Assembly: GCA_947311255.1 (NCBI GenBank)
Contig: CAMZKL010000032.1
Coordinates: forward strand, 1-64,000
Length of the DNA: 64,000 nt
Reading direction: 5' to 3'
From: an uncultured Chlorobiota bacterium
GTDB lineage: Bacteria; Bacteroidota; Bacteroidia; Bacteroidales; JAADGE01
This document shows, piece after piece, positions 6,227-52,512 of the stretch. Below the pieces are notes generated by a model. That model searched no databases and was not told the DNA's origin. It saw nothing but the letters and a program-made list of their open reading frames with translations. A program made the translations under genes and the position numbers. Each line of letters begins with the position of its first letter. The stretch's first letter is position 1.

Positions 6227-8758
6227 ATGAAAAAATTATTATCTTTAAGTTTAGTTTTGTTCTTTTCTGTTTTTGCTTTTGGGCAGATTAACCAAAGCTC
6301 AAAGCTAGATTGGATAGATCTTCAAAAAGAAGTTAAAAATCCAGAACTTTCAAAAGTAGTTACCGACTGGATCTTCTATTGTGGAGACCCAAATACAAGT
6401 ATCGGAGTAAATGGAGCAGCAGATTTTGGTTGCTTTATTCATATTCCTACAAGTCTTTTAACTGCTCATGACGGAAGACAAATTCAAGAAATGCAAGTTT
6501 TTTTACCACAACCAGACAATATTAGTGCAATAGAACTTAGGATATACGAAGAAGCTGGAAATGGAACTCCTGGCACTCCTGTCTATAGTCAAAGTTTCAC
6601 TCCAAATACTGATGAAACAGAATGGACTACTGTTCTTTTAAACACTCCTTACACTATTGATGGAAGTCAAGAAGTTATAATTGGATATTTTTTTTCTGTA
6701 ACTGCTGGGTTTCCTGCAGGATGTGATGGCGGCCCAACAAATTCAGATGGTGATTTAATGATTTGGAATGGAAGCTGGACACACCTTGTTAATTTAAGTT
6801 CATCCTTGGCATATAATTGGAATATAAAAGCAGGCATTGGTGATGCAGTTGATAATGATGCAATTATGTCTTCTGTAACTGTAAACAACATTGTTGTCGA
6901 GGGGAATATTGATATTACTGGCACTATTACAAATGGAGGAAGCAACCAAATTACTTCTTTTGATTTATCTTGGCAAATTGATGGCGGCACGGTACATACA
7001 GAAACTATTTCTGGCTTATCTCTCGACTATTCTAATTCTTATAATTTTTCACATACAAACCTATGGAATGCAACTGTTGGGGCATATAACTTAACTGTTT
7101 CAGTTTCAAATATAAACGGTGCTGGAGATGATGACATAACAACAAACAATAGTATTGCAAAAGAAATATTAGTTGCAACTCAAAGTGTACAAAATATGCC
7201 ATTATTTGAGGAGTTCACAAGCTCCACATGCCCCCCTTGTGCAGGATTTAACACCAATACAATGACACCTTTCATGGAAAATCACCCAATTGATATTGCT
7301 GTTATAAAATACCAAATGAGTTGGCCTAGCCCTGGAGATCCATATTATACTGAAGAAGGAGGAACTAGAAGATCTTACTATGGCGTTAGTAGTGTTCCAT
7401 CATTATTTACAGGAGGAGTAGGAACGGGAACTAACACAAGTGCTGTAAACAATGCATATACAACAGAAATGGCAAAACCTGCATATTTTAACATTTCATC
7501 AACATTTGAAATTACAGGAACAAATATAACAGTAAATGTTGATATTATGCCTTACATTACAACAAATTTCAATGTGCAAATAGCGGTGGTAGAACAAACG
7601 ACTACTGAAAATGCCTCGAGTAATGGCGAAACTAAATTTGAGCATGTTATGATGAAGATGTTACCCGATGCTAACGGAACTTCTGTAAATTTCATAGCAG
7701 GGACTAATTCCTCGCTTTCTGAAACTTTTGATTTGGCTTCGACAAATGTAGAAGAGATAGAAGATATAGCTGTTGTTGTTTTTATTCAAAATAATGACAC
7801 CAAGGAAGTTTTTCAATCCTGTTTTGTTCTCCCATCACCTTACGTAACTTATAATATTGAAGATGAAGCTACAAATATTGATGCTTTTTCTGATGTTATT
7901 CTAACATTTAATCAAACAATGAGATTAGTAAATGATAGCCCGATTACTGATTTAAATATTTCAGATTTTGTGCATTTGACTGACCCATCAAAAGGAGTTT
8001 TGCCATATACAGCAACGATAAATCAAGAATTAAACCAAATAACAATTACTCCTGATATACTTTTTCCAGAGTCAACTGAAATAACTGTAACAATAGATGA
8101 TAATGAAATTGAAAACTTACAAAATCAAGCTATGGTAGGACAAGTTGTAACGTTTACCACAGCGGCATATCCTAATGCAAATGTTACTTTTAATCCAGTA
8201 GATGGTGCTACAGATATTGCACTAACAACAAATATCTCTTTAACATTTGACAATGCAATGAGAAAATTTGATGATTCTGATATTACAAACGGAGATATAA
8301 GTTCTATTGTTACTTTGACCGACCCATCAAAAGGAAGCATTGCGTATACAGGAACAATAAATTCTGCAAAAACTATAATTACACTTAACCCAAACGAAGA
8401 ACTTCCTGAACTAACTAATATTACTGCGACAATTGCAAATAATGTTATTGAAAATTTTTACGGCAATGCTTTAGCTGAAAATTCAACAACATTTACAACA
8501 AAACAGGCTGTTAATATTACAAATATTTTTGCAGGTATAAACATTTATCCTAATCCAGCAAAGAGTGCTATATTGATTTCAAATGCAGAAAATTTAGATA
8601 TAGAAATAATTGATATTAAAGGTAAAATACTAATCTCAAAAAATAATATTTCTGCAAATCAAGCAATAGAGACTTCTATACTTGAAAATGGAATATATTT
8701 TATTAAATTATATAACGATACAACTTATAAGATACAAAAAATTGTTATTTCAAGATAA
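6227..8758 (+). CDS. Secreted Omp28/thioredoxin-like protein with SbsA-type Ig-like repeats and T9SS type A sorting domain
   Basis: Signal peptide; 'LFEEFTSSTCPPCAGFNTNTMTPFMENHP' (CPPC); two Ig_5-like repeats ending in 'LTDPSKG...ITITP'; C-terminal 'INIYPNPAKSAILISNAENLDIEIIDIKGKIL...GIYFIKLYNDTTYKIQKIVISR'. Confidence 0.85.
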   Translation: MKKLLSLSLVLFFSVFAFGQINQSSKLDWIDLQKEVKNPELSKVVTDWIFYCGDPNTSIGVNGAADFGCFIHIPTSLLTAHDGRQIQEMQVFLPQPDNISAIELRIYEEAGNGTPGTPVYSQSFTPNTDETEWTTVLLNTPYTIDGSQEVIIGYFFSVTAGFPAGCDGGPTNSDGDLMIWNGSWTHLVNLSSSLAYNWNIKAGIGDAVDNDAIMSSVTVNNIVVEGNIDITGTITNGGSNQITSFDLSWQIDGGTVHTETISGLSLDYSNSYNFSHTNLWNATVGAYNLTVSVSNINGAGDDDITTNNSIAKEILVATQSVQNMPLFEEFTSSTCPPCAGFNTNTMTPFMENHPIDIAVIKYQMSWPSPGDPYYTEEGGTRRSYYGVSSVPSLFTGGVGTGTNTSAVNNAYTTEMAKPAYFNISSTFEITGTNITVNVDIMPYITTNFNVQIAVVEQTTTENASSNGETKFEHVMMKMLPDANGTSVNFIAGTNSSLSETFDLASTNVEEIEDIAVVVFIQNNDTKEVFQSCFVLPSPYVTYNIEDEATNIDAFSDVILTFNQTMRLVNDSPITDLNISDFVHLTDPSKGVLPYTATINQELNQITITPDILFPESTEITVTIDDNEIENLQNQAMVGQVVTFTTAAYPNANVTFNPVDGATDIALTTNISLTFDNAMRKFDDSDITNGDISSIVTLTDPSKGSIAYTGTINSAKTIITLNPNEELPELTNITATIANNVIENFYGNALAENSTTFTTKQAVNITNIFAGINIYPNPAKSAILISNAENLDIEIIDIKGKILISKNNISANQAIETSILENGIYFIKLYNDTTYKIQKIVISR

Positions 8759-8774
8759 AATAAACACATTTAAA

Positions 8775-8815
8775 AGGCAAAAAATTGCTTACAATCTTGT
8801 AAGTACTTTTTTGTC
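8775..8815 (+). terminator. Putative intrinsic terminator
   Basis: Imperfect hairpin ggcaaaaaattgCTTACAAtcTTGTAAGtacttttttgtc directly after the stop at 8758. Confidence 0.55.
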
Positions 8816-8848
8816 TTAAACTATTATAAATTTATAATAAAAATAATC

Positions 8849-11638
8849 ATGAAAAAATATTTATTTTTATTCTTCGGATTGCTTTTAAGCACTTCTTTTT
8901 TTGCACAAAAAAGCACAATATTATTAAGTGAAGACTTCTCTGAAAGCGTTCCTCCCACAGGATGGACTATTGATGATGTAGCTAACAAGTGGTCTCAATC
9001 ATCAAGTTCAAAAGCTGGCGGCATAGCTCCAGAAGCTAAGTTCTCTTGGGTGTCAGGAACACATACTACAAGATTAATATCTCCAGAAATAAACTTAACC
9101 GGACAAAACTCTGTTATTTTTTCTTTCAAACATTTTTTAGATGATTATTCAGGTTCAGGTTATTCAATTGGAGTTTCTACTCGTTCCGGAGGAGGAGCTT
9201 GGACGGATGTTTGGTCTGTAAATCCAACAGGAGACATTGGCCCATTAACCAAAAGCATTGTAATTTCAAACTCAGATGTTGGAGCTTCTGATTTTCAAAT
9301 TTGTGTGTTTTTAAGTGGAAATATGTATAACTTTAACTATTGGTATCTTGATGATTTTACGCTTGCTTTACCTGACAACAATGATGTTGCACTACAATCA
9401 ATTAACACTTCTCCGTATCTTGCTGCCACAAATATTGACATTGAATGTACATATGAAAATCTTGGCATTAATAATATTACATCTTTAGATATAAACTATC
9501 AAATTAATGATGGTGCAGTTATAACAGAAAACATAACTGGAATAAATCTTGCCACAACAGAGACTTTAGACTACACATTTGCAACACAATGGAATGCTAC
9601 ACCCGGAAATTACACATTAAAAGTTTGGACATCAAACATGAATGGTTCAGGAGATGATGATGACACAAGTAATGATATGACAACAGAAACAATAAGCATT
9701 GCAACCCAATCCGTACAAAACACACCTTTATTTGAAGAGTTCACAAGTTCAACTTGTGGTCCTTGTGCCTCGTTCAATGCAAACTCAATGACTCCTTTTA
9801 TGAATAGTCATCCAAACGACATAACAGTTATTAAATATCAAATGAGTTGGCCTAGTCCGGGAGACCCATATTATACAGAAGAAGGCGGAACAAGAAGGGT
9901 ATATTATGGAGTTAGTGCAGTCCCTGACTTGCTTAGCGGAGGAAACAGTACTACAACAAGTTCTTCAGGTTTAAATAATGCTTACAGCACTCTTATGGCA
10001 AAACCTTCTTTTTTTGAAATAGATGCTACTCATCAAATTGATGGTAATAACATTTCAGTTCAAGTAGATATTATGCCATATATTACTGCTAATAATTTTT
10101 CAGTTCATATAGTTGTTATTGAAACCCAAACAACAGGAAATGTTGGCAATAATGGGGAAACTGAATTTAAAAATGTTATGATGAAAATGTTACCTGATGC
10201 AAACGGAACATCGGTTAATTTTTCTTCGGAAGTTAACTCATTTATTAGCGAATCATTTGACCTATCATCTACACATGTTGAGGAAATGAACGACCTCAAA
10301 GTAGTAGTTTTCATTCAAAATAATGTTACAAAAGAAATTTTCCAATCTTCTTATTCAGCTGAAGCAAGTTTACCTGCTCCAAATGTAGCTTTTTCACCTG
10401 AAAACAATGCTACCGACGTTGATTTCAATACTGACATTACACTTTCTTTTAATCAATCAATGAGATTTGTTGATGATTCTGAAATAACAAATGAAAACAT
10501 ATCCAATTTTGTATCAATTTCTGACCCATCAAAAGGAAATGTACCTTTTACAGCAACAATTAATGACAGTAAATCAGTTATTACTTTAAACCCGGATAGC
10601 TTTCTACCAGAAACATCGCTTATAACAATTAGTATCAATGATGCAGAAATAGAAGGTGTAAATAATGTTACCCTAGGAGGAATAACTTCTTCATTTACAA
10701 CAAATCTGCACCCATTAGCTGAGATGAGTTTTAATATATCAAACGGTGATGTAAATGTTGATGTAGATTCTGATATTGTTTTAAGTTTTAATTCTCCTAT
10801 GATAAACATTGACGATTCTGAAATAGTTGATGGAGATATAAACTCATTTATAACATTAACAGACCCTTCAAAAGGAAATATTGCTTATATCGGAACGATA
10901 AATGCTGAAAAAACACAAATAACAATAGCTGCCGACCCGTATCTGCCTGAACTCAGTGCTATAACTGTTACTGTTTTAGATAATATGATTAAAAACATTT
11001 ACGGTAAAACACTGACTTCTAGCTCAATAACATTTAACACCGAAGGATACCCTAATGCAAATGTTACTTTCAATCCTGCTAATGGGGAACAAGGGGTTGA
11101 TGTTTCTACAAACATTCTTTTAACATTTGATGATGCAATAAGAAAAATTAATGATTCTGAAATACTTGATGGAGATATAAGTTCTTTTGTTACTTTAACC
11201 GACCCGTCAAAAGGGAATATTGCTTATACAGGAACAATAAATACAGAAAAAACAATAATTACTATTAACCCTGACGATGATTTAAATGAGCTAACAGATA
11301 TTACTTTAACAATTGCAGGTAATATTATAGAAAATGGATACAATCAAATTCTTAATGAAAATTCTATAACATTTACAACGGGAGAAGTAAACGACATTTC
11401 AGACATTGAATCTATAATCAAAATGTTTCCAAATCCTGCAAATAATATTATAACAATTAGTAATGCACTTGGTTCTTATGTTGAAATATTTGAAATGTCT
11501 GGGAAATTATTATTTACTAAAAAAATTACTTCTACAAATCAACAGATTAATATTTCCAGCATTGATGAAGGAACTTATTTTATTAAAATAAAAAACAATA
11601 ATTATACAATCACTAAAAAAATAGTTGTTATAAAATAA
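8849..11638 (+). CDS. Secreted Omp28/thioredoxin-like protein with N-terminal cleaved-adhesin domain, three Ig-like repeats and T9SS type A sorting domain
   Basis: 'LLSEDFSESVPPTGWTIDD...WYLDDFTLAL' (cleaved adhesin/choice-of-anchor J); 'LFEEFTSSTCGPCASFNANSMTPFMNSHP' (CGPC); three Ig_5-like repeats; C-terminal 'IKMFPNPANNIITISN...GTYFIKIKNNNYTITKKIVVIK'. Confidence 0.87.
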   Translation: MKKYLFLFFGLLLSTSFFAQKSTILLSEDFSESVPPTGWTIDDVANKWSQSSSSKAGGIAPEAKFSWVSGTHTTRLISPEINLTGQNSVIFSFKHFLDDYSGSGYSIGVSTRSGGGAWTDVWSVNPTGDIGPLTKSIVISNSDVGASDFQICVFLSGNMYNFNYWYLDDFTLALPDNNDVALQSINTSPYLAATNIDIECTYENLGINNITSLDINYQINDGAVITENITGINLATTETLDYTFATQWNATPGNYTLKVWTSNMNGSGDDDDTSNDMTTETISIATQSVQNTPLFEEFTSSTCGPCASFNANSMTPFMNSHPNDITVIKYQMSWPSPGDPYYTEEGGTRRVYYGVSAVPDLLSGGNSTTTSSSGLNNAYSTLMAKPSFFEIDATHQIDGNNISVQVDIMPYITANNFSVHIVVIETQTTGNVGNNGETEFKNVMMKMLPDANGTSVNFSSEVNSFISESFDLSSTHVEEMNDLKVVVFIQNNVTKEIFQSSYSAEASLPAPNVAFSPENNATDVDFNTDITLSFNQSMRFVDDSEITNENISNFVSISDPSKGNVPFTATINDSKSVITLNPDSFLPETSLITISINDAEIEGVNNVTLGGITSSFTTNLHPLAEMSFNISNGDVNVDVDSDIVLSFNSPMINIDDSEIVDGDINSFITLTDPSKGNIAYIGTINAEKTQITIAADPYLPELSAITVTVLDNMIKNIYGKTLTSSSITFNTEGYPNANVTFNPANGEQGVDVSTNILLTFDDAIRKINDSEILDGDISSFVTLTDPSKGNIAYTGTINTEKTIITINPDDDLNELTDITLTIAGNIIENGYNQILNENSITFTTGEVNDISDIESIIKMFPNPANNIITISNALGSYVEIFEMSGKLLFTKKITSTNQQINISSIDEGTYFIKIKNNNYTITKKIVVIK

Positions 11639-11646
11639 ACAAAACA

Positions 11647-11683
11647 AAAAGTTGTTGACCCATTAATAGGTTGACAACTTTTA
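11647..11683 (+). terminator. Putative intrinsic terminator
   Basis: Hairpin aaaAGTTGTtgacccattaataggttgACAACTtttatattt downstream of the stop at 11638. Confidence 0.55.
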
Positions 11684-11709
11684 TATTTATTCATTTTAAA
11701 AAAAAATTT

Positions 11710-12417
11710 ATGAAAAAAATAATATTCTTTATAATTGCAATAGTTATTCTAATTTCTTCAGGTTTTGCACAAATTACAATAACAAAACTAGATGGAACCC
11801 CTATTAATGATGGAGACATTATAACATTTAATAATGTTGGGGATGATGCTAACTTAACAACACTTATAACTAATAATGCAGGAACTGCTATCGACTTGAA
11901 TTTAGTTGCAGAAGATATAATAGGAACTAATGGCTCTCAAATGGAATTCTGTTTTAGTAGTTGTTTATGGGGCATTGTTCAAGGAACAATTTATGGTCCC
12001 TTATCTCTTGATGCAGGAGCAACAACAACTGAACTCCAAGTCCATTTTCATAACCACAGTACCGAAAATGATGTTATAACTTATACATTCAGAATTTATG
12101 AAGAAGGGAATTCTTCAAATGTGGTTCATTTTACGTATAAATATGACGTTAACTATGTTGGAATAGATGATATAAAATCTTATGACATTTCCGTTTATCC
12201 AAACCCCACTACAGAATATTTCAAAATTAGACTCCCCGAAGAATTGGAAGGGTCAAATATAACATTAACAAATATTTTGGGAGAAATAATTCTTGAAAAA
12301 GAAATAAATAACTCAAATGAAAAAGTTTATGTTAACAATCTTGCAAAAGGTATTTATTTTTATTCAATAATAAATGCAAACAAATTAATTGAAACTAAAA
12401 AACTAATAATTAAATAA
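11710..12417 (+). CDS. Small secreted protein with T9SS type A sorting domain
   Basis: Signal peptide MKKIIFFIIAIVILISSGFAQ; 'MEFCFSSCLWG'; C-terminal 'ISVYPNPTTEYFKIRLP...GIYFYSIINANKLIETKKLIIK'. ATG 11710 preferred over ORF start 11671. Confidence 0.8.
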   Translation: MKKIIFFIIAIVILISSGFAQITITKLDGTPINDGDIITFNNVGDDANLTTLITNNAGTAIDLNLVAEDIIGTNGSQMEFCFSSCLWGIVQGTIYGPLSLDAGATTTELQVHFHNHSTENDVITYTFRIYEEGNSSNVVHFTYKYDVNYVGIDDIKSYDISVYPNPTTEYFKIRLPEELEGSNITLTNILGEIILEKEINNSNEKVYVNNLAKGIYFYSIINANKLIETKKLIIK

Positions 12418-12484
12418 TATTTCCGGAATATATTTTGCAAATATTATATATTGATAAAAAGTATCGATAATAAAATTTAAATTT

Positions 12485-13003
12485 ATGAAACGAATTAGCT
12501 TTATATTATTATTCAGCATTTTTTTTAGCGGAATAGTTTTTTCTCAAGAAACATCAAATAAATTACCTTCTGTTGATATAAAAACATTAACGGGAGAAAC
12601 TTTTAACACTTCTAAAATTTCAAATGACGGTCCAATATTTATCAGTTTTTGGGCAACATGGTGTAAGCCCTGTATTAAGGAGCTTATAGCCATTGATGAA
12701 AACTATGTTGATTGGCAAGAAGAAACAAACCTTAAAGTTTATGCAATATCAATTGATGACACAAAAAGCATGAGTAGAGTTGCCCCATTTGTAAATGGAA
12801 GAGCATGGGAATTTGAAGTCCTTTTAGATGCAAACAGCGATTTTAAAAGAGCAATGAATGTTATTAATGTACCTCATTCATTTATTTTAGACAAAAACGG
12901 AAAAATTGTTTGGCAACATAGTTCTTATTCTCCTGGCGATGAAGAAGAAATTTATGAAATAATTAAAAAACTTGCTGTAGGAGAAGAAATAAAGCACAAA
13001 TAA
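12485..13003 (+). CDS. TlpA-family thioredoxin-like protein
   Basis: Signal peptide; 'FISFWATWCKPCIKELIAIDENY' (WCKPC active site), 'VINVPHSFILDKNGKIVW' with cis-Pro. Confidence 0.92.
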   Translation: MKRISFILLFSIFFSGIVFSQETSNKLPSVDIKTLTGETFNTSKISNDGPIFISFWATWCKPCIKELIAIDENYVDWQEETNLKVYAISIDDTKSMSRVAPFVNGRAWEFEVLLDANSDFKRAMNVINVPHSFILDKNGKIVWQHSSYSPGDEEEIYEIIKKLAVGEEIKHK

Positions 13004-13016
13004 AATTTATAAAATT

Positions 13017-13039
13017 AAGCCGACTTTTCCGGCTTTTTT
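13017..13039 (+). terminator. Intrinsic terminator
   Basis: AAGCCG-acttttc-CGGCTT followed by TTTT, 14 nt after the TlpA stop. Confidence 0.75.
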
Positions 13040-13064
13040 CTTTTAACTTTTGACATTTATAATT

Positions 13065-14753
13065 ATGACAAAAAAAATCATAATATTTTTATTATACCTT
13101 TCTCCAATAATTTCATTTGCACAAGAGGAAGGAAAAAAAAATTACGGACAAATCCACGGTAATTTTGAAACAATTATTCAAACATATCAAATTGATACAA
13201 TAATTGGTGTAGATAGTGCTGATGTACCAAATGAAAAAGCCCTTTCAAATTCATATTTGAATTTAACATATACAAAAGGAAAGTTTTCTGCCGGAATCCG
13301 TTATGAGGTTTATATGAACACTCTCGAAGGATACGATAAAAGATATAACGGACATGGAATAGCAAACAGATACGCATCTTATACTTCTAATGAACTTGAA
13401 ATAACTGTAGGTAATTTTTATGAGCAATTCGGAAACGGACTTATTCTTAGAACATACGAAGAAAAAACTCTTGGCATTGATAATTCTTTGGATGGCATTA
13501 GATTGAAATATAAACCAATTAAAGGAATTAAACTTACAGGACTCATAGGAAAACAACGATTATATTGGACACATGGCCCTGGTATTATTAGAGGAATTGA
13601 TGGAGAGATTTCTTTTAATGAAACATTCAAAAAACTGGAAAATAGTAAAACACGTTTTTTAATAGGTGGGAGTTTTGTAAGTAAATATCAAAAAGCTGAA
13701 AGCCCAAAATATAATTACCCTGAAAATGTTGGAACTTTTGCCGGAAGATTTAATCTTTCAAGAAATAGCTTTATTTTATCAACAGAATATGCTTACAAAA
13801 TAAATGACCCATCTTCTGATAATGCAACATTATATAATTATCCAATTTTTAAATCAGGAAATGCCCTTTTTATAAATGCATCTTGGTCTAAAAAAGGTAT
13901 TGGAATTTTACTCTCAGCATTACGCCTAGACAATATGAGTTTTAGGTCTGACAGAAACGCATCAATAAATGACCTGAGCATCAACTATTTACCTGCCATT
14001 GCTAAAACCCACACATACTCATTTCCTGCCATGTATCCATTCTCCACTCAACCAAACGGACAAATTGGATTCAATGCAGAAATATTTTATACTTTTAAAA
14101 GAAAAAGTTTGCTTGGCGGAAAATACGGAACTACAGTTAACTTAAATTTCTCTCAAGTTAATTCAATAAAAATAGAAAAAATTAAATATAATGAAGTAGA
14201 TACTTTAGCACATTACAACGGATACACAACCGACTTGTTTGGTGTTGGAAAAGAACTATATTTTAGAGATTTTAATATTGAATTACACAAAAAAGTTCAT
14301 AAAAAGTTTAAATTCTCTCTAATTTATATGTATGAAGATTACAATAAAAAAATTATTCAAGGAAAAGACAGTACACTTCATGCTGACATAGGAGTTCTCG
14401 ATTTTACCTATAAAATTAGCTCTAAACATGCCATAAGAATTGAAACTCAAATTCTTTCTGTAAACAAAAATGGAAGTGGAGAAAAAAATGATTATGGAGA
14501 TTGGTACACCGGAATGTTAGAATATACATTCTCTCCTCATTGGTTTATTGCAGTTACAGACCAATACAACACAGGAAATACTCATCATAACAGTGCACAC
14601 TATTACAACTTTTCTGCTGGGTATGTTAAAGGTGCAAATAGAATTCAAGTTGGTTATGGAAGACAAAGAGAAGGAATCGTTTGTGTTGGAGGTGTTTGCA
14701 GATTTGTACCTGCTGCCAGTGGTTTCAATTTCACATTAACAAGTTCATTCTAA
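13065..14753 (+). CDS. DUF6029-like outer-membrane beta-barrel protein
   Basis: 'GKKNYGQIHGNFETIIQTYQIDT...' and 'GNFYEQFGNGLILRTYEEKTLGIDNSLDGIRLKYKP' with C-terminal 'GIVCVGGVCRFVPAASGF'; ATG 13065 preferred over TTG 13050. Confidence 0.72.
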   Translation: MTKKIIIFLLYLSPIISFAQEEGKKNYGQIHGNFETIIQTYQIDTIIGVDSADVPNEKALSNSYLNLTYTKGKFSAGIRYEVYMNTLEGYDKRYNGHGIANRYASYTSNELEITVGNFYEQFGNGLILRTYEEKTLGIDNSLDGIRLKYKPIKGIKLTGLIGKQRLYWTHGPGIIRGIDGEISFNETFKKLENSKTRFLIGGSFVSKYQKAESPKYNYPENVGTFAGRFNLSRNSFILSTEYAYKINDPSSDNATLYNYPIFKSGNALFINASWSKKGIGILLSALRLDNMSFRSDRNASINDLSINYLPAIAKTHTYSFPAMYPFSTQPNGQIGFNAEIFYTFKRKSLLGGKYGTTVNLNFSQVNSIKIEKIKYNEVDTLAHYNGYTTDLFGVGKELYFRDFNIELHKKVHKKFKFSLIYMYEDYNKKIIQGKDSTLHADIGVLDFTYKISSKHAIRIETQILSVNKNGSGEKNDYGDWYTGMLEYTFSPHWFIAVTDQYNTGNTHHNSAHYYNFSAGYVKGANRIQVGYGRQREGIVCVGGVCRFVPAASGFNFTLTSSF

Positions 14754-14781
14754 GTTTTATTATTATTTTAAATTAAAAAAA

Positions 14782-15624
14782 ATGAAAGTCTTTAAAATAT
14801 TATCAATTCTGTTCATAGCTTTTTTATTTACTTGTAACAAAATTGATATTCCTCTAAAAAAACAAAACAATACATGTGGAATTGATACAGACACTACCCA
14901 TATAAGAAAAATTTTAGTTGCAGATTATACTGGTCATAAGTGTGTAAATTGTCCGCAAGCAGCTGAAATTTTACATGAAATAAAAAATAAATATTGCGAC
15001 CATGTTATTCCAATTGCAATTCATGTAAGTAATTTTGCAAGTCCTTCAAACGAACCATTTGATAATGATTACAGAACACTTGCCGGAACAGAGCTAGATG
15101 ATTTTTTTAAAGTTTCTAATCAGGGGTTGCCTAATGGTCTTATAAACAGAAAAAATTATGGTACAAATTCAAGCCCTTCATACATAGTTAGTAAAGACAA
15201 TTGGGAAACAAAAGTTAATTTAATATTTAATATCCCACCAGATGTTGATATTTCAATTCAGAGTTCATATGATGAAAATACAAATAAAGTAACGGCAACA
15301 ATATCAGCAGAGTTTTTATATGATATTGATTATAATTTAAACATTGGTCTATATGTTACAGAAGACAGTATAATAAGTGCTCAAATGTCACTACACGGGA
15401 TTATTGAAAATTATATTCATAGGCATATGTTAAGGAAAAGCATTTCAGGAGCATTTGGAGAAAATTTTGTTTCTAATGCATCTGAGGGTGATATTATTAA
15501 CAAATCATATACTTTCCATGTAAATGAAGAATGGGACATTAACCATTGTGAACTTGTTGCATTTATTAGTAATAGAGAAACTAAAGAAATAATTCAAGCC
15601 GAATCTGAACATATAATTCATTAA
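14782..15624 (+). CDS. Omp28-related outer membrane lipoprotein
   Basis: Lipobox-like 'FLFTCNK'; 'ILVADYTGHKCVNCPQAAEILHEIK' (CVNC) and 'QGLPNGLINRKNY' typical of Omp28-related proteins. Confidence 0.82.
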   Translation: MKVFKILSILFIAFLFTCNKIDIPLKKQNNTCGIDTDTTHIRKILVADYTGHKCVNCPQAAEILHEIKNKYCDHVIPIAIHVSNFASPSNEPFDNDYRTLAGTELDDFFKVSNQGLPNGLINRKNYGTNSSPSYIVSKDNWETKVNLIFNIPPDVDISIQSSYDENTNKVTATISAEFLYDIDYNLNIGLYVTEDSIISAQMSLHGIIENYIHRHMLRKSISGAFGENFVSNASEGDIINKSYTFHVNEEWDINHCELVAFISNRETKEIIQAESEHIIH

Positions 15625-38397: not shown

Positions 38398-41025
38398 TTA
38401 ATGAATAAAACGATAAGAAAATTTAATTAAAATTACATCCAATGCCCCTACTTTAAACATATCTTTAATATTATTTCTAAAATTAAAAGTTCCGTTTGAA
38501 CTATTATTGGTTTTGTCTTGCGACCAAACAAGATATAATAATGAACCAGGTTTATATTCCCATCTTATAACTAGATTTGAACGGTATTGTTGATAATTAA
38601 AATCCAATTTACTAAAATTGTAATTATAATTCCCATCTGCGTTTTCGCTTATTTGAAATATATCATCTTGTGGTAAATAGTTTATTTCATTTTCATTAAA
38701 TGAATGAAACCGGTTCTCATAAACACCGTTTTTGGGCTCTGTAATTTTCTTATAATCAGAATATAATGCTGCACTAATAAAAGGAGCACTATAATATTGA
38801 ATCGTAAAATCCGGTGTTATGTTTAAATCAACTCTCATAGTCATTGAAAAAGTTTTTTGATTAATTTCTCCAAAGATATATCTGTCTTCATTGTTAAAAG
38901 TTATTGTAGAAATGTATTGAAGTTCAGAGTTTTTATAATTATAACTTGGAGCTAATGAAACAGATAAGATATTAATAGGGCGGTATTTAATAAATGCAAA
39001 CAAACCATAGCTTCTTCCAGAATTATTAAAGCTATAATTATCCCAAAAATGAAGATTCAATCTTATTTTTTTGGTTGAATTTGTACCAATACCGAGATTA
39101 TAATTAAACATTCCAGGAGTAATCATAGCAGGCCCACCTCTTAAAACGGAGTTGTCAATTGTTCTTCCTTCCGAAGTTATATTTAAGTTAAAAGACCAAA
39201 AGTTTTTAAATTGTAACCAAGTTCCAATATTTCCTCCATAAAAAGTATTTGTTCCACCATAGTCCCATCCTACCCATTCATTAGCATTAATTCCTCCTTC
39301 CCTGAAAACAAACACAGGTTTGGTAAAAGAATATCCTGCCCAAACATATTGAAAAACATTATTTGCTCTTCTCATATACCCCATATCATTCAAATCAAAG
39401 CCCGGTGAACGCCAAGTTAAATTTGCCATAAATCGAAATCCTTTATTAGATTGTTTTTTAAAATTTATATTTCCTCCGTATCCTAATAATGATGTTCTTG
39501 TTGAATCAAAATTCACATAATGCAAATCAGGGTTTTGAAAATATCTTTGAGAAGATGTTTGTAATTTATAAATTGCATTTTCACTTCCGTTTATTCGGCT
39601 TCCAGCAATCTTTGCAGAAATAGAGTATTTTTTATCTTTCAAATATTGTATAAAATCTAAACCTCCTGTTATTGCAGACTTATTCATCGAGTCAAAATTT
39701 TCATTATCAATAAAACGAAATACAGATGTAAGCATTCCTCCAATTATTGTATTTCCTTTATTCATATCTTTTTGCATACGTGCAGCAAAAAAATTTGTAA
39801 ATGGCTCCACGGCCTCTTTCCTTTCATCTCCTTCGAAATTAATTTTTGCAAATTCTTGACTTGTTAAACTTTCAATAATTCCAATGGAAACGCCTTTTTT
39901 TGTTTTTCCTGTTAATTTAAGAGCTCCAATAATCCTTGTATTTTCAGGCATTTTTAAATATTCATTATTTAAAACATTAGGGTAATAACGAGGAGCACTA
40001 CCTAACCTTCTGGAATAAAACAGATTATCTCGTGCCAAAGGATTTCCTCCTGGTGTAATTTGATAATCAATAATATTACTCCCTTCAACAAAAAATGGTC
40101 GTTTTTCACTAAAAAAAGTTTCATAAGCTGTTAAATTTACTTCGGAAGGGTCTGCTTCAACTTGCCCAAAATCCGGATTAATTGCAAAATCAAGAGTCAG
40201 GTCATTTGTTATCCCAATCTTTCCATCAAGCCCAGCATTTAAAAACATGTCTTTTCCATCTGCATAAGGATTTCCATCTTCTTTTTTATAAAACTCAAAT
40301 TTTGTTGAAACATAGGGTGAAATTTCAATCTGCTTTTTGGGATGCAAATCTTTCAAACCTTCTAATGATCCAAATTTGCTTACCCAACCAGATGCTTTTT
40401 GAGGAATAAATTGCCACATATCCCATTCTTTATTTCGAAATAAGAATCTTACAACTTGCAATCCCCATCTTTGATTTTTGTTGTCATTAAATCTTAACTG
40501 ACTTAAAGGTATTTTCATTTCAGCTGTCCACCCAAAATCAGTAATTAAAGTTTTTGTTGTCCAGAGCGGATCCCATGTGTCGTCGTCATCATCAACATTA
40601 TCATTACTTGTAACGGCATCAGACCTAACACCCGAAGCACTAACGGCAAAAACAAATGCAGTTTTTTTGTCGTAATAGCTATCAATTTGAACTGCAACTA
40701 AATCACCGTCCCAACTGTCTCGCCTGGACATTCTTTTTTCAATTTTTTTAGGTTCTGTATCGTAAGCCTTTATGGCAACATATATATTGTTGTTATCATA
40801 TAAAATTTTAAACTCTGTATTTTGCGATGGTTTTGTTCCTTCATTTGGTTCGTATTGTGTGTAATTACCTTCCCAAGCAATTTTTTTCCAATCTGCATCA
40901 TCTAAAAAACCATCAATTTTTATTGAATTGTTTTTAATTCTTTGAGTTGTATATGTTTTGTTTTGCCCATATGTTACAACAAATGTAAAAACAAGAAGGC
41001 AGTTAAAAAGTAAAAAGACTTTCAT
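38398..41025 (-). CDS. DUF5916 / CBM9-like outer-membrane associated protein
   Basis: 'IKIDGFLDDADWKKIAWEGNYTQYEPNEGTKPSQNTEFKILYDNNNIYVAIKAYD' (carbohydrate-binding family 9-like), 'NPDFGQVEADPSEVNLTAYETFFSEKRPFFVEGS' (DUF5916 hallmark). Confidence 0.9.
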   Translation of the reverse strand: MKVFLLFNCLLVFTFVVTYGQNKTYTTQRIKNNSIKIDGFLDDADWKKIAWEGNYTQYEPNEGTKPSQNTEFKILYDNNNIYVAIKAYDTEPKKIEKRMSRRDSWDGDLVAVQIDSYYDKKTAFVFAVSASGVRSDAVTSNDNVDDDDDTWDPLWTTKTLITDFGWTAEMKIPLSQLRFNDNKNQRWGLQVVRFLFRNKEWDMWQFIPQKASGWVSKFGSLEGLKDLHPKKQIEISPYVSTKFEFYKKEDGNPYADGKDMFLNAGLDGKIGITNDLTLDFAINPDFGQVEADPSEVNLTAYETFFSEKRPFFVEGSNIIDYQITPGGNPLARDNLFYSRRLGSAPRYYPNVLNNEYLKMPENTRIIGALKLTGKTKKGVSIGIIESLTSQEFAKINFEGDERKEAVEPFTNFFAARMQKDMNKGNTIIGGMLTSVFRFIDNENFDSMNKSAITGGLDFIQYLKDKKYSISAKIAGSRINGSENAIYKLQTSSQRYFQNPDLHYVNFDSTRTSLLGYGGNINFKKQSNKGFRFMANLTWRSPGFDLNDMGYMRRANNVFQYVWAGYSFTKPVFVFREGGINANEWVGWDYGGTNTFYGGNIGTWLQFKNFWSFNLNITSEGRTIDNSVLRGGPAMITPGMFNYNLGIGTNSTKKIRLNLHFWDNYSFNNSGRSYGLFAFIKYRPINILSVSLAPSYNYKNSELQYISTITFNNEDRYIFGEINQKTFSMTMRVDLNITPDFTIQYYSAPFISAALYSDYKKITEPKNGVYENRFHSFNENEINYLPQDDIFQISENADGNYNYNFSKLDFNYQQYRSNLVIRWEYKPGSLLYLVWSQDKTNNSSNGTFNFRNNIKDMFKVGALDVILIKFSYRFIH

Positions 41026-51024: not shown

Positions 51025-52512
51025 CTATTCTAGCAAACCTCTGTCTCTATTTTTCCCGCAAAGCATGAAATTAATTCCAAAACTTAGATTTGCTCTTTTT
51101 GTATTTCTTATCCATTTGTCAGAAAAACTACTTTGATTTATTGCCCAAAATGGAACTGCAATATTATCTGTTACAAGGTACATTTGAAAAGGTCCAACTT
51201 TATATGCTATACCCATTCCTATATTGTGTTGAAAACCATCCATAATAGAGTAACTTGCTGAGTATGACCAAGCTTTAAAGAAATTCAGATTTGCAGAAGC
51301 TGTATATGAAGAATATAATTTTTTATTAACAATTGCTCCTCTGTATAGCAAACCAAAATCTAACCATTCTTTAACAGAGATGTTTGCACCTAAATAAATT
51401 TTAGTATTTAAACCTGTTGTGTATTTTGAGTTTTTAATTGTTGGGTCGTAAAATGTTAATAAAGTATCTAATATATCATTAACTACTGAATCCTGTAGTG
51501 ATGAATTGTTATTTTTAGCATCACTAAGGCTGTTTATATATTTTGTTAAATCATATCCATTATATCTAAAGGAGCCTTTTTGAGTCATAATTTTAGGGTT
51601 TGCTTTCCAACTAATAAAGCCTAAATCTATAACTGATGCAGAGAATAAGAATCTGTCGTTGATATTATATTCTGCACCAACATCTAAAGCTAATCCATGA
51701 TTTTTAGTAAAAATTAAATCTTTATAGTTTTTGCCAATATTATCTACATAAGTAGTATCATAAGAAACTCCATTAATTTTATTTGCCGAATCTCTTTTAA
51801 AATTCCAATCTACTGGTGTTGATGTTCTTATGTCAAAGTCTGATTCAAAAATCCAATCGTAAGTATCTTCTTCTTTGGTTGAAGTGTACCAATCGAATTT
51901 CATGCTTTTTGTAGAAAGATTTGCATGTCCGGTAAGATATTTAATTCTTGCTCCAAGTGTAAAACCATTATATAACTTTTTTGAAAGACCAAGATAAGTT
52001 TCTCTATATACTGTGAAATTTTGGGTAAAATTAAAAGCTAAAGGGGTTCCATTTTCTCTATAGTTTCCATGAGAAACTTCTAAAAGAGCTTTTGGATATT
52101 GAAATTGTTCTGATATTTTATAGTTTATTCCAAATGTTAAGTACAAATTATTCCTGAGAGCTAATCCAAGATTAAATATTGAAAAATTTGTTTCTAAAAA
52201 AATTGCATTTTTTTCTTTCAAAGCTTTTTCAATTGTATTTAAATCTATCATAAATGAATCTGGTGCTGTTGGATGGTTCATAATTGCATCATTAAAAGAA
52301 AATCCTTTATGATTTGCATTGAAAGAAAAATTTGGCAAAACAGGAAGTGTTATAAACAACTTACAAGATTGTTTTGCGGGATTAGTATTCATGCTTTGTG
52401 GTAAATGTTTCATCCAAAACATTGTATTGTCCTGAGAAAAGACAGTACTAGAAAAAAGCCCTAAAACAATTAGTGTAAGTATTGCTTTATTAAATTTGTA
52501 AATTTTTGTCAT
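51025..52512 (-). CDS. DUF5723-like outer-membrane protein
   Basis: Signal peptide, 'MFWMKHLPQSMNTNPAKQSCKLFITLPVLPNFSFNANHKGFSFNDA', C-terminal 'NLSFGINFMLCGKNRDRGLLE'. Confidence 0.7.
   Translation of the reverse strand: MTKIYKFNKAILTLIVLGLFSSTVFSQDNTMFWMKHLPQSMNTNPAKQSCKLFITLPVLPNFSFNANHKGFSFNDAIMNHPTAPDSFMIDLNTIEKALKEKNAIFLETNFSIFNLGLALRNNLYLTFGINYKISEQFQYPKALLEVSHGNYRENGTPLAFNFTQNFTVYRETYLGLSKKLYNGFTLGARIKYLTGHANLSTKSMKFDWYTSTKEEDTYDWIFESDFDIRTSTPVDWNFKRDSANKINGVSYDTTYVDNIGKNYKDLIFTKNHGLALDVGAEYNINDRFLFSASVIDLGFISWKANPKIMTQKGSFRYNGYDLTKYINSLSDAKNNNSSLQDSVVNDILDTLLTFYDPTIKNSKYTTGLNTKIYLGANISVKEWLDFGLLYRGAIVNKKLYSSYTASANLNFFKAWSYSASYSIMDGFQHNIGMGIAYKVGPFQMYLVTDNIAVPFWAINQSSFSDKWIRNTKRANLSFGINFMLCGKNRDRGLLE

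Follow-up and report, generated by a model that had tools for sequence, protein, structure and literature searches.

A stretch of 64,000 nucleotides (the window, meaning this whole stretch; contig CAMZKL010000032.1, positions 1 to 64,000) from an uncultured bacterium carries, at 6227-15624 on the + strand, a block of six consecutive genes, g1 to g6, whose products are all predicted to be exported and all contain a closely spaced pair of cysteines. The source genome is a 2.8-Mb Bacteroidota assembly, whose closest named relatives are uncultured Bacteroidales metagenome-assembled genomes. Comparison across the phylum leaves hardly any doubt that the block, or at least its core, is a real module inherited as a unit, and makes a role in thiol-redox chemistry probable. 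Further, with nearly even chances, the module might be a conserved thiol-disulfide relay spanning the outer membrane, which would run from DsbD through a TlpA-type thioredoxin and a DUF6029 β-barrel to surface proteins of the Omp28/HBP35 type; the transfer across the outer membrane, taken by itself, we would put at even or a little under. The observed basis for the relay consists of gene linkage, domain composition, invariant cysteine pairs, predicted folds and topology, and gene fusions, from which direct contacts, electron flow, its reductive direction and the identity of the final client are inferred.

An earlier sequence-only reading of the window had drawn attention to these six same-strand exported proteins with close cysteine pairs; all of the open reading frames (ORFs) lie where it had placed them, and every detail checked proved correct. 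All six genes of the block have a C-x(2-4)-C pair, which occurs in 4 of the 42 other ORFs in the window that reach 120 aa. Of the three outcomes that the sequence-only reading had named as refuting its proposal, none came true. The proposal that the six genes make up one functional unit is likewise well supported by their linkage, by the invariance of the cysteine pairs, which holds in five family alignments, and by the position of the CxxC in the Omp28 proteins. That this unit moves reducing equivalents or disulfides from the periplasm to the cell surface would be the most economical reading.

A search with the DUF6029 profile PF19494 across 297 genomes that sample the phylum broadly gave matches in 80, which represent 56 of the 141 genera and 25 of the 51 families covered. 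For 74 of these DUF6029 loci, stretches of no more than some 20 kb were taken and the neighbours classified with profiles built here, which cover thioredoxin, Omp28, C-terminal domain (CTD) and PorA-like genes only; one locus with a doubtful DUF6029 (L088 of genome G227) was left out. In this phylum-wide sample, a TlpA-type thioredoxin-fold gene immediately precedes DUF6029 in 63/72 loci (88%), and lies within two genes of it in 66/72 once two missed ORFs are added (the apparent absences in L047 and L053 being ORF-calling errors). An exported thioredoxin-fold gene immediately follows DUF6029 in 54/73 loci (74%), as compared with a background of 0-9% at most positions beyond ±2. The corresponding values for the 80 closest relatives, which were drawn from the species collection, are 73/77 (95%) and 75/80 (94%). 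Hence, the co-occurrence for which the sequence-only reading had asked extends far beyond close relatives, DUF6029 being present in 25 families and retaining its TlpA and Omp28 neighbours. Several of the 80 loci from the closest relatives (L109, L110, L111, L120 and L127) have a window-like order, i.e., Omp28-CTD, PorA-like-CTD, TlpA, DUF6029 and Omp28 lipoprotein. A different arrangement is found in L062-L066, which come from family f7 and a single f4 genome: here TlpA does not precede DUF6029 on the same strand but is divergent from it, the two sharing a promoter region.

The central component, g5 (13065-14753, +), is a DUF6029 outer-membrane β-barrel, matching PF19494 over residues 1-562 of 562 (609.6 bits, E 7e-183). 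Its predicted model (pLDDT 89.7, pTM 0.84) is a 24-strand barrel with short turns on the side of the N- and C-termini and mostly longer loops on the opposite side, and the CVGGVC motif (Cys540/Cys545) lies in the hairpin of the twelfth and last far-side loop. Provided that both termini are periplasmic, this loop is predicted to be extracellular. The pair is strongly conserved: C540, G543 and C545 are invariant in 29 DUF6029 sequences sampled with the hidden Markov model (HMM), at identities down to 17%, and the motif is present in 151/155 HMM matches, the exceptions including ORFs that are broken (L060), truncated (L061) or doubtful (L088). The most divergent alignment, A1, was too variable for scanning the species collection, so that A2 was used, with patterns including CVGG[VI]CR; both cysteines are retained in 51/51 DUF6029 proteins of the resulting set, a count biased by the presence of the motif in the scan pattern. 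The unbiased evidence on these cysteines is accordingly the HMM-sampled set and not the 80 nearest loci.

Neither structure nor profile comparison recovered a close solved relative of DUF6029. Ushers, LptD, TonB receptors and the barrel of the Mtr complex match the model only in a general way, a chain of the Mtr complex being found among its Foldseek matches as are many other barrels. The sole open-access mention of DUF6029 that was found has it as a possible polysaccharide porin and reports HHpred similarity to it for some Wzi-like barrels (PMC9603273). In such a case it would be an OPX-type export porin and the thioredoxins would be incidental; this is very improbable, as what stays constant over the 153 loci, with neighbours classified for thioredoxin, Omp28, CTD and PorA-like genes, is the cysteine pair and the thioredoxin neighbours. 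The size of the barrel, which is that of TonB-dependent receptors, instead raises the prospect of reductive nutrient acquisition, wherein DUF6029 would be a transporter or receptor for heme, a metal or a thiol ligand that the surface thioredoxins free or reduce. It would also fit the hemin binding of HBP35, a surface protein of Porphyromonas gingivalis, and the slower growth of its deletion mutant without hemin (PMC2907840). However, a plug domain is absent from DUF6029, none of the solved structures is closely related to it, and the part of HBP35 that binds hemin lies outside its thioredoxin part, making this explanation improbable, if less so than the porin.

The proteins proposed to act at the surface are g1, g2 and g6. 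The first two encode tandem paralogues with 70% identity in the Omp28 domain: g1 (6227-8758, +) combines an HBP35/Omp28-type thioredoxin domain with a CPPC near residues 335-338, an immunoglobulin (Ig) domain, two Big_5 repeats and a type A CTD, while g2 (8849-11638, +) has a choice-of-anchor J domain (choice_anch_J), a CGPC, three Big_5 repeats and a type A CTD. The CTDs of g1, g2 and g3 score above the Pfam/NCBIfam cut-offs, identifying these proteins as type A cargo of the type IX secretion system (T9SS). In contrast to them, g6 (14782-15624, +) is a lipoprotein, with a lipobox Cys18 that is invariant among g6-type proteins (52/52 sequences), followed by a thioredoxin domain with C54VNC57 and an Ig-like domain; it scores 155.1 bits against NF033782, the NCBIfam Omp28 lipoprotein model (cut-off 150), and 94.5 bits against PF11551 (cut-off 34.9). 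The Pfam Omp28 model, which also matched g1 in a whole-genome search, covers no more than the second half of each such protein, and the CxxC half, though recognisable by profile, lies outside it. Both cysteines of the pair are kept in 30/30 T9SS-exported Omp28 domains (alignment A6) and in 52/52 Omp28 lipoproteins.

The predicted structure of the Omp28 lipoprotein (pLDDT 93.8) has a strand at 44-50, a C54xxC57 opening the helix at 57-74 and an invariant P117 immediately ahead of the strand at 118-121, after which the Ig-like sandwich follows. In this model the overall layout is that of thioredoxin and the CxxC occupies the thioredoxin active-site position. Foldseek recovers HBP35 as its best solved match (PDB 5y1a, E 2.9e-12), with Omp28 (2r2c) next. 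Profiles of the g6 and g1/g2 groups each match HBP35 and thioredoxins (E 1.4e-10 for A6 against 5y1a), and match each other over their full length (E 6e-39). Thus g1 and g2 have an HBP35-like architecture, namely a thioredoxin domain with CxxC, an Omp28/Ig domain and a T9SS CTD. HBP35 is located on the cell surface, uses its pair of active-site cysteines to reduce insulin and can complement a dsbA mutant of E. coli (PMC2907840). By analogy g1 and g2 are putative surface thioredoxins, the activity having been measured in HBP35, besides which no studied member of this surface group was found in the literature. For 00502, an Omp28-related protein by annotation with which Paraprevotella recruits trypsin (PMC9477747), no redox role was found described, and it was not used as a functional model. 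As a separate observation, the window's genome encodes a further Omp28-domain T9SS protein amid other CTD genes (G000:C16:25601-26122, a 700-aa frame).

The product of g4 (12485-13003, +) is a secreted TlpA/ResA-like thioredoxin of the AhpC-TSA family with a WCKPC motif; it scores above the cut-offs of PF00578/PF08534 and below those of the specific ResA and DsbE models. Across its homologues WC.PC and the cis-proline P130 are invariant, with WCxPC in 36/36. In the proposed relay, this periplasmic protein would probably be re-reduced by the inner-membrane DsbD/CcdA and might dock at or within the wide DUF6029 barrel, whose CxGGVC pair would hand on reducing equivalents to the thioredoxin-fold proteins at the surface, i.e., the Omp28 lipoprotein and the exported HBP35-like g1 and g2, and through these to surface clients.

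The main rival to the relay is a dedicated disulfide-assembly unit. Here TlpA, as oxidase, isomerase or reductase, would mature the cysteine pairs of its five companions while these are still in the periplasm; the barrel would have another job in transport or export, and its CxGGVC would be structural. We consider this unlikely on balance while giving it real weight: all five proteins hold a type of pair suited to a thiol chaperone, HBP35 complements dsbA, and the CxGGVC is predicted to form a tight β-hairpin. However, it leaves unexplained why a thioredoxin-fold enzyme with an invariant CxxC should in every case be the partner at the surface, and why family f24 has, in place of the surface Omp28, TlpA-type proteins with CPHC, of which one is lipoprotein-like and another carries a T9SS tail. 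This non-orthologous replacement indicates a redox function that persists through a change of protein family. Additionally, TlpA and DUF6029 are fused in a single 667-aa ORF (L042:7939-9942, with CVPC and CVGGVC, respectively), adjoined by a divergent Omp28 lipoprotein with CGYC. This fusion places TlpA at the periplasmic N-terminus, and one TlpA per barrel exceeds what a folding aid would need. The far flank of the f24 loci (L078, L080 and L084; e.g., L080:4472-4990) encodes, as a side observation, an additional secreted, DsbH-like thioredoxin-like protein with CTYC.

Several points count against the relay. An i/i+5 hairpin such as the CxGGVC could be purely a structural disulfide, and a cysteine pair in an extracellular loop requires either that TlpA enters the barrel or that the loop folds inward. 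Some few loci lack Omp28, and in family f33 (L038, L044, L046 and L052) DUF6029 and Omp28 are kept with no linked TlpA. DsbD adjoins the module in just two of the 153 loci, L035 and L185, which is about chance for mere presence; only its position and strand, immediately next to the module and co-directional in both, are informative, and these speak for the relay. In the window's genome DsbD/CcdA is encoded elsewhere, not at the block. Finally, a search for Omp28_seleno (NF045500) in the 297 genomes gave nothing above the cut-off, with no in-frame TGA among the matches listed, and support from selenoproteins was dropped as it rests only on the definition of that family by NCBI.

The remaining protein, g3 (11707-12417, +), is a small T9SS cargo with a PorA-N-like domain, containing a CxxxC (CFSSC), and a CTD. 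Its profile matches PorA (PDB 6kjk) modestly (E 6e-4 over about 77 columns), with the CFGQC of PorA aligning with its CxxxC. Signal, domain of about 130 aa and CTD are arranged alike in the two, differing in that PorA is not known to be linked to TlpA or DUF6029. The CxxxC is kept in 76/78 copies of the PorA-like domain, and all 29 aligned domains hold both cysteines. Unlike Omp28, the PorA-like domain of g3 does not have the fold of a thioredoxin, and an enzyme is a less likely role for g3 than that of a partner or client; in the relay it would be a surface client, redox switch or sensor. At L067:6863-8350 and L067:8400-9836 lie a T9SS protein in which the PorA-like CxxxC domain is repeated three times in tandem and, next to it, a single protein comprising Omp28, a PorA-like domain and a CTD.

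The fold of PorA is Ig-like and resembles FimH, and the protein functions upstream of PorXY-SigP (PMC7712824). Hence, the module could instead sense the redox state of the surface and report it via g3 to PorXY-SigP to steer T9SS expression, as might also be read from the frequency of SprA, which is found in 79/80 genomes with DUF6029 as against 150/217 others (Fisher p 8e-10), an association confounded by phylogeny. The window's genome itself has a T9SS, with SprA and 71 CTD matches. We regard this explanation as decidedly improbable, given the modest similarity to PorA, the lack of any literature role found for the PorA cysteines and the genome G230, which has neither SprA nor CTD proteins and yet keeps TlpA-DUF6029 with a lipoprotein bearing two Omp28 domains (L056). 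The core is therefore independent of the T9SS, and the notion of T9SS dependence based on SprA is weakened further because one SprA-less clade drives much of the association. In the 689-aa lipoprotein of this T9SS-less genome (L056:3390-5459) the two Omp28 domains flank a CAGGQC segment; a PorA-like domain suggested there was rejected as evidence, being only a local motif match of about 5 bits.

To return to the proposed relay, it can be set against known systems in several respects. HBP35 shares the thioredoxin and Ig-like domains and the CxxC with g6 and g1/g2, and the T9SS tail with g1/g2, whereas it is a T9SS cargo where g6 is a lipoprotein, and it has been studied alone as a hemin-binding protein with no barrel or TlpA partner described. 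With Omp28 of P. gingivalis (2r2c) and NF033782 the link is that g6 passes the cut-off of this model, but the solved structure covers only the C-terminal half and lacks the CxxC domain. The DsbD/CcdA-TlpA/ResA/DsbE relays likewise use a TlpA-type CxPC protein and a chain of cysteine pairs, with DsbD adjacent in two of our loci; however, the known ones span the inner membrane and have their endpoint in the periplasm, while the one here appears to be extracellular. MtrCAB offers a works-like analogy in its periplasmic redox protein, large outer-membrane barrel and surface redox protein, although the module has no haem and no sequence relation to it, and would use thiols in place of cytochromes. 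That the module provides a new route, carrying cytoplasmic thiol electrons via DsbD, TlpA and the 24-strand barrel to surface thioredoxins as a thiol counterpart of MtrCAB-type conduits, is offered tentatively, the chances leaning somewhat against it. To our knowledge no trans-outer-membrane thiol relay is known, and this gene set was not found described in the open-access literature, which was searched for DUF6029 and Omp28 singly and together; such an absence is no proof.

It is an open question how Gram-negative bacteria hold the thiols of their surface and secreted proteins in a defined state outside the outer membrane, and the module supplies concrete, testable parts for addressing it. 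If the relay is right, it would provide HBP35-type proteins with candidate partners, namely TlpA in the periplasm and a barrel whose cysteine pair faces the surface, and the same holds for PorA-type proteins, both so far studied in isolation. It would also be the first role assigned to DUF6029, in a phylum of central importance to the ecology of the gut, the mouth and the sea and across a large part of which the module is distributed.

Regarding transcription, hairpins after g1, g2 and g4 had been taken to argue for several transcripts. All three are confirmed, folding much better than shuffled sequences: a terminator or attenuator candidate 3' of g1 (8774-8817, +; RNA-fold z = -6.15), a terminator-like hairpin 3' of g2 (11647-11682, +; z = -4.8) and a further terminator or attenuator candidate with a T run in the g4-g5 gap (13017-13035, +; z = -2.8). 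Several transcripts thus fit this genome, but elsewhere the TlpA-DUF6029-Omp28 core appears operon-like, because the median gaps in co-directional loci are 4-35 bp 5' of DUF6029 (10-13 bp 3' of it). Promoter consensus scans gave matches at chance level. The block is flanked by an OMP_b-brl gene upstream and by CvpA-like and tyrosyl-tRNA synthetase genes downstream, none of which has such a cysteine pair and all of which lie outside the conserved unit. Elsewhere in the window are an uncharacterised DUF5723 protein (51025-52512) and a protein combining DUF5916 with CBM9 (38398-41025).

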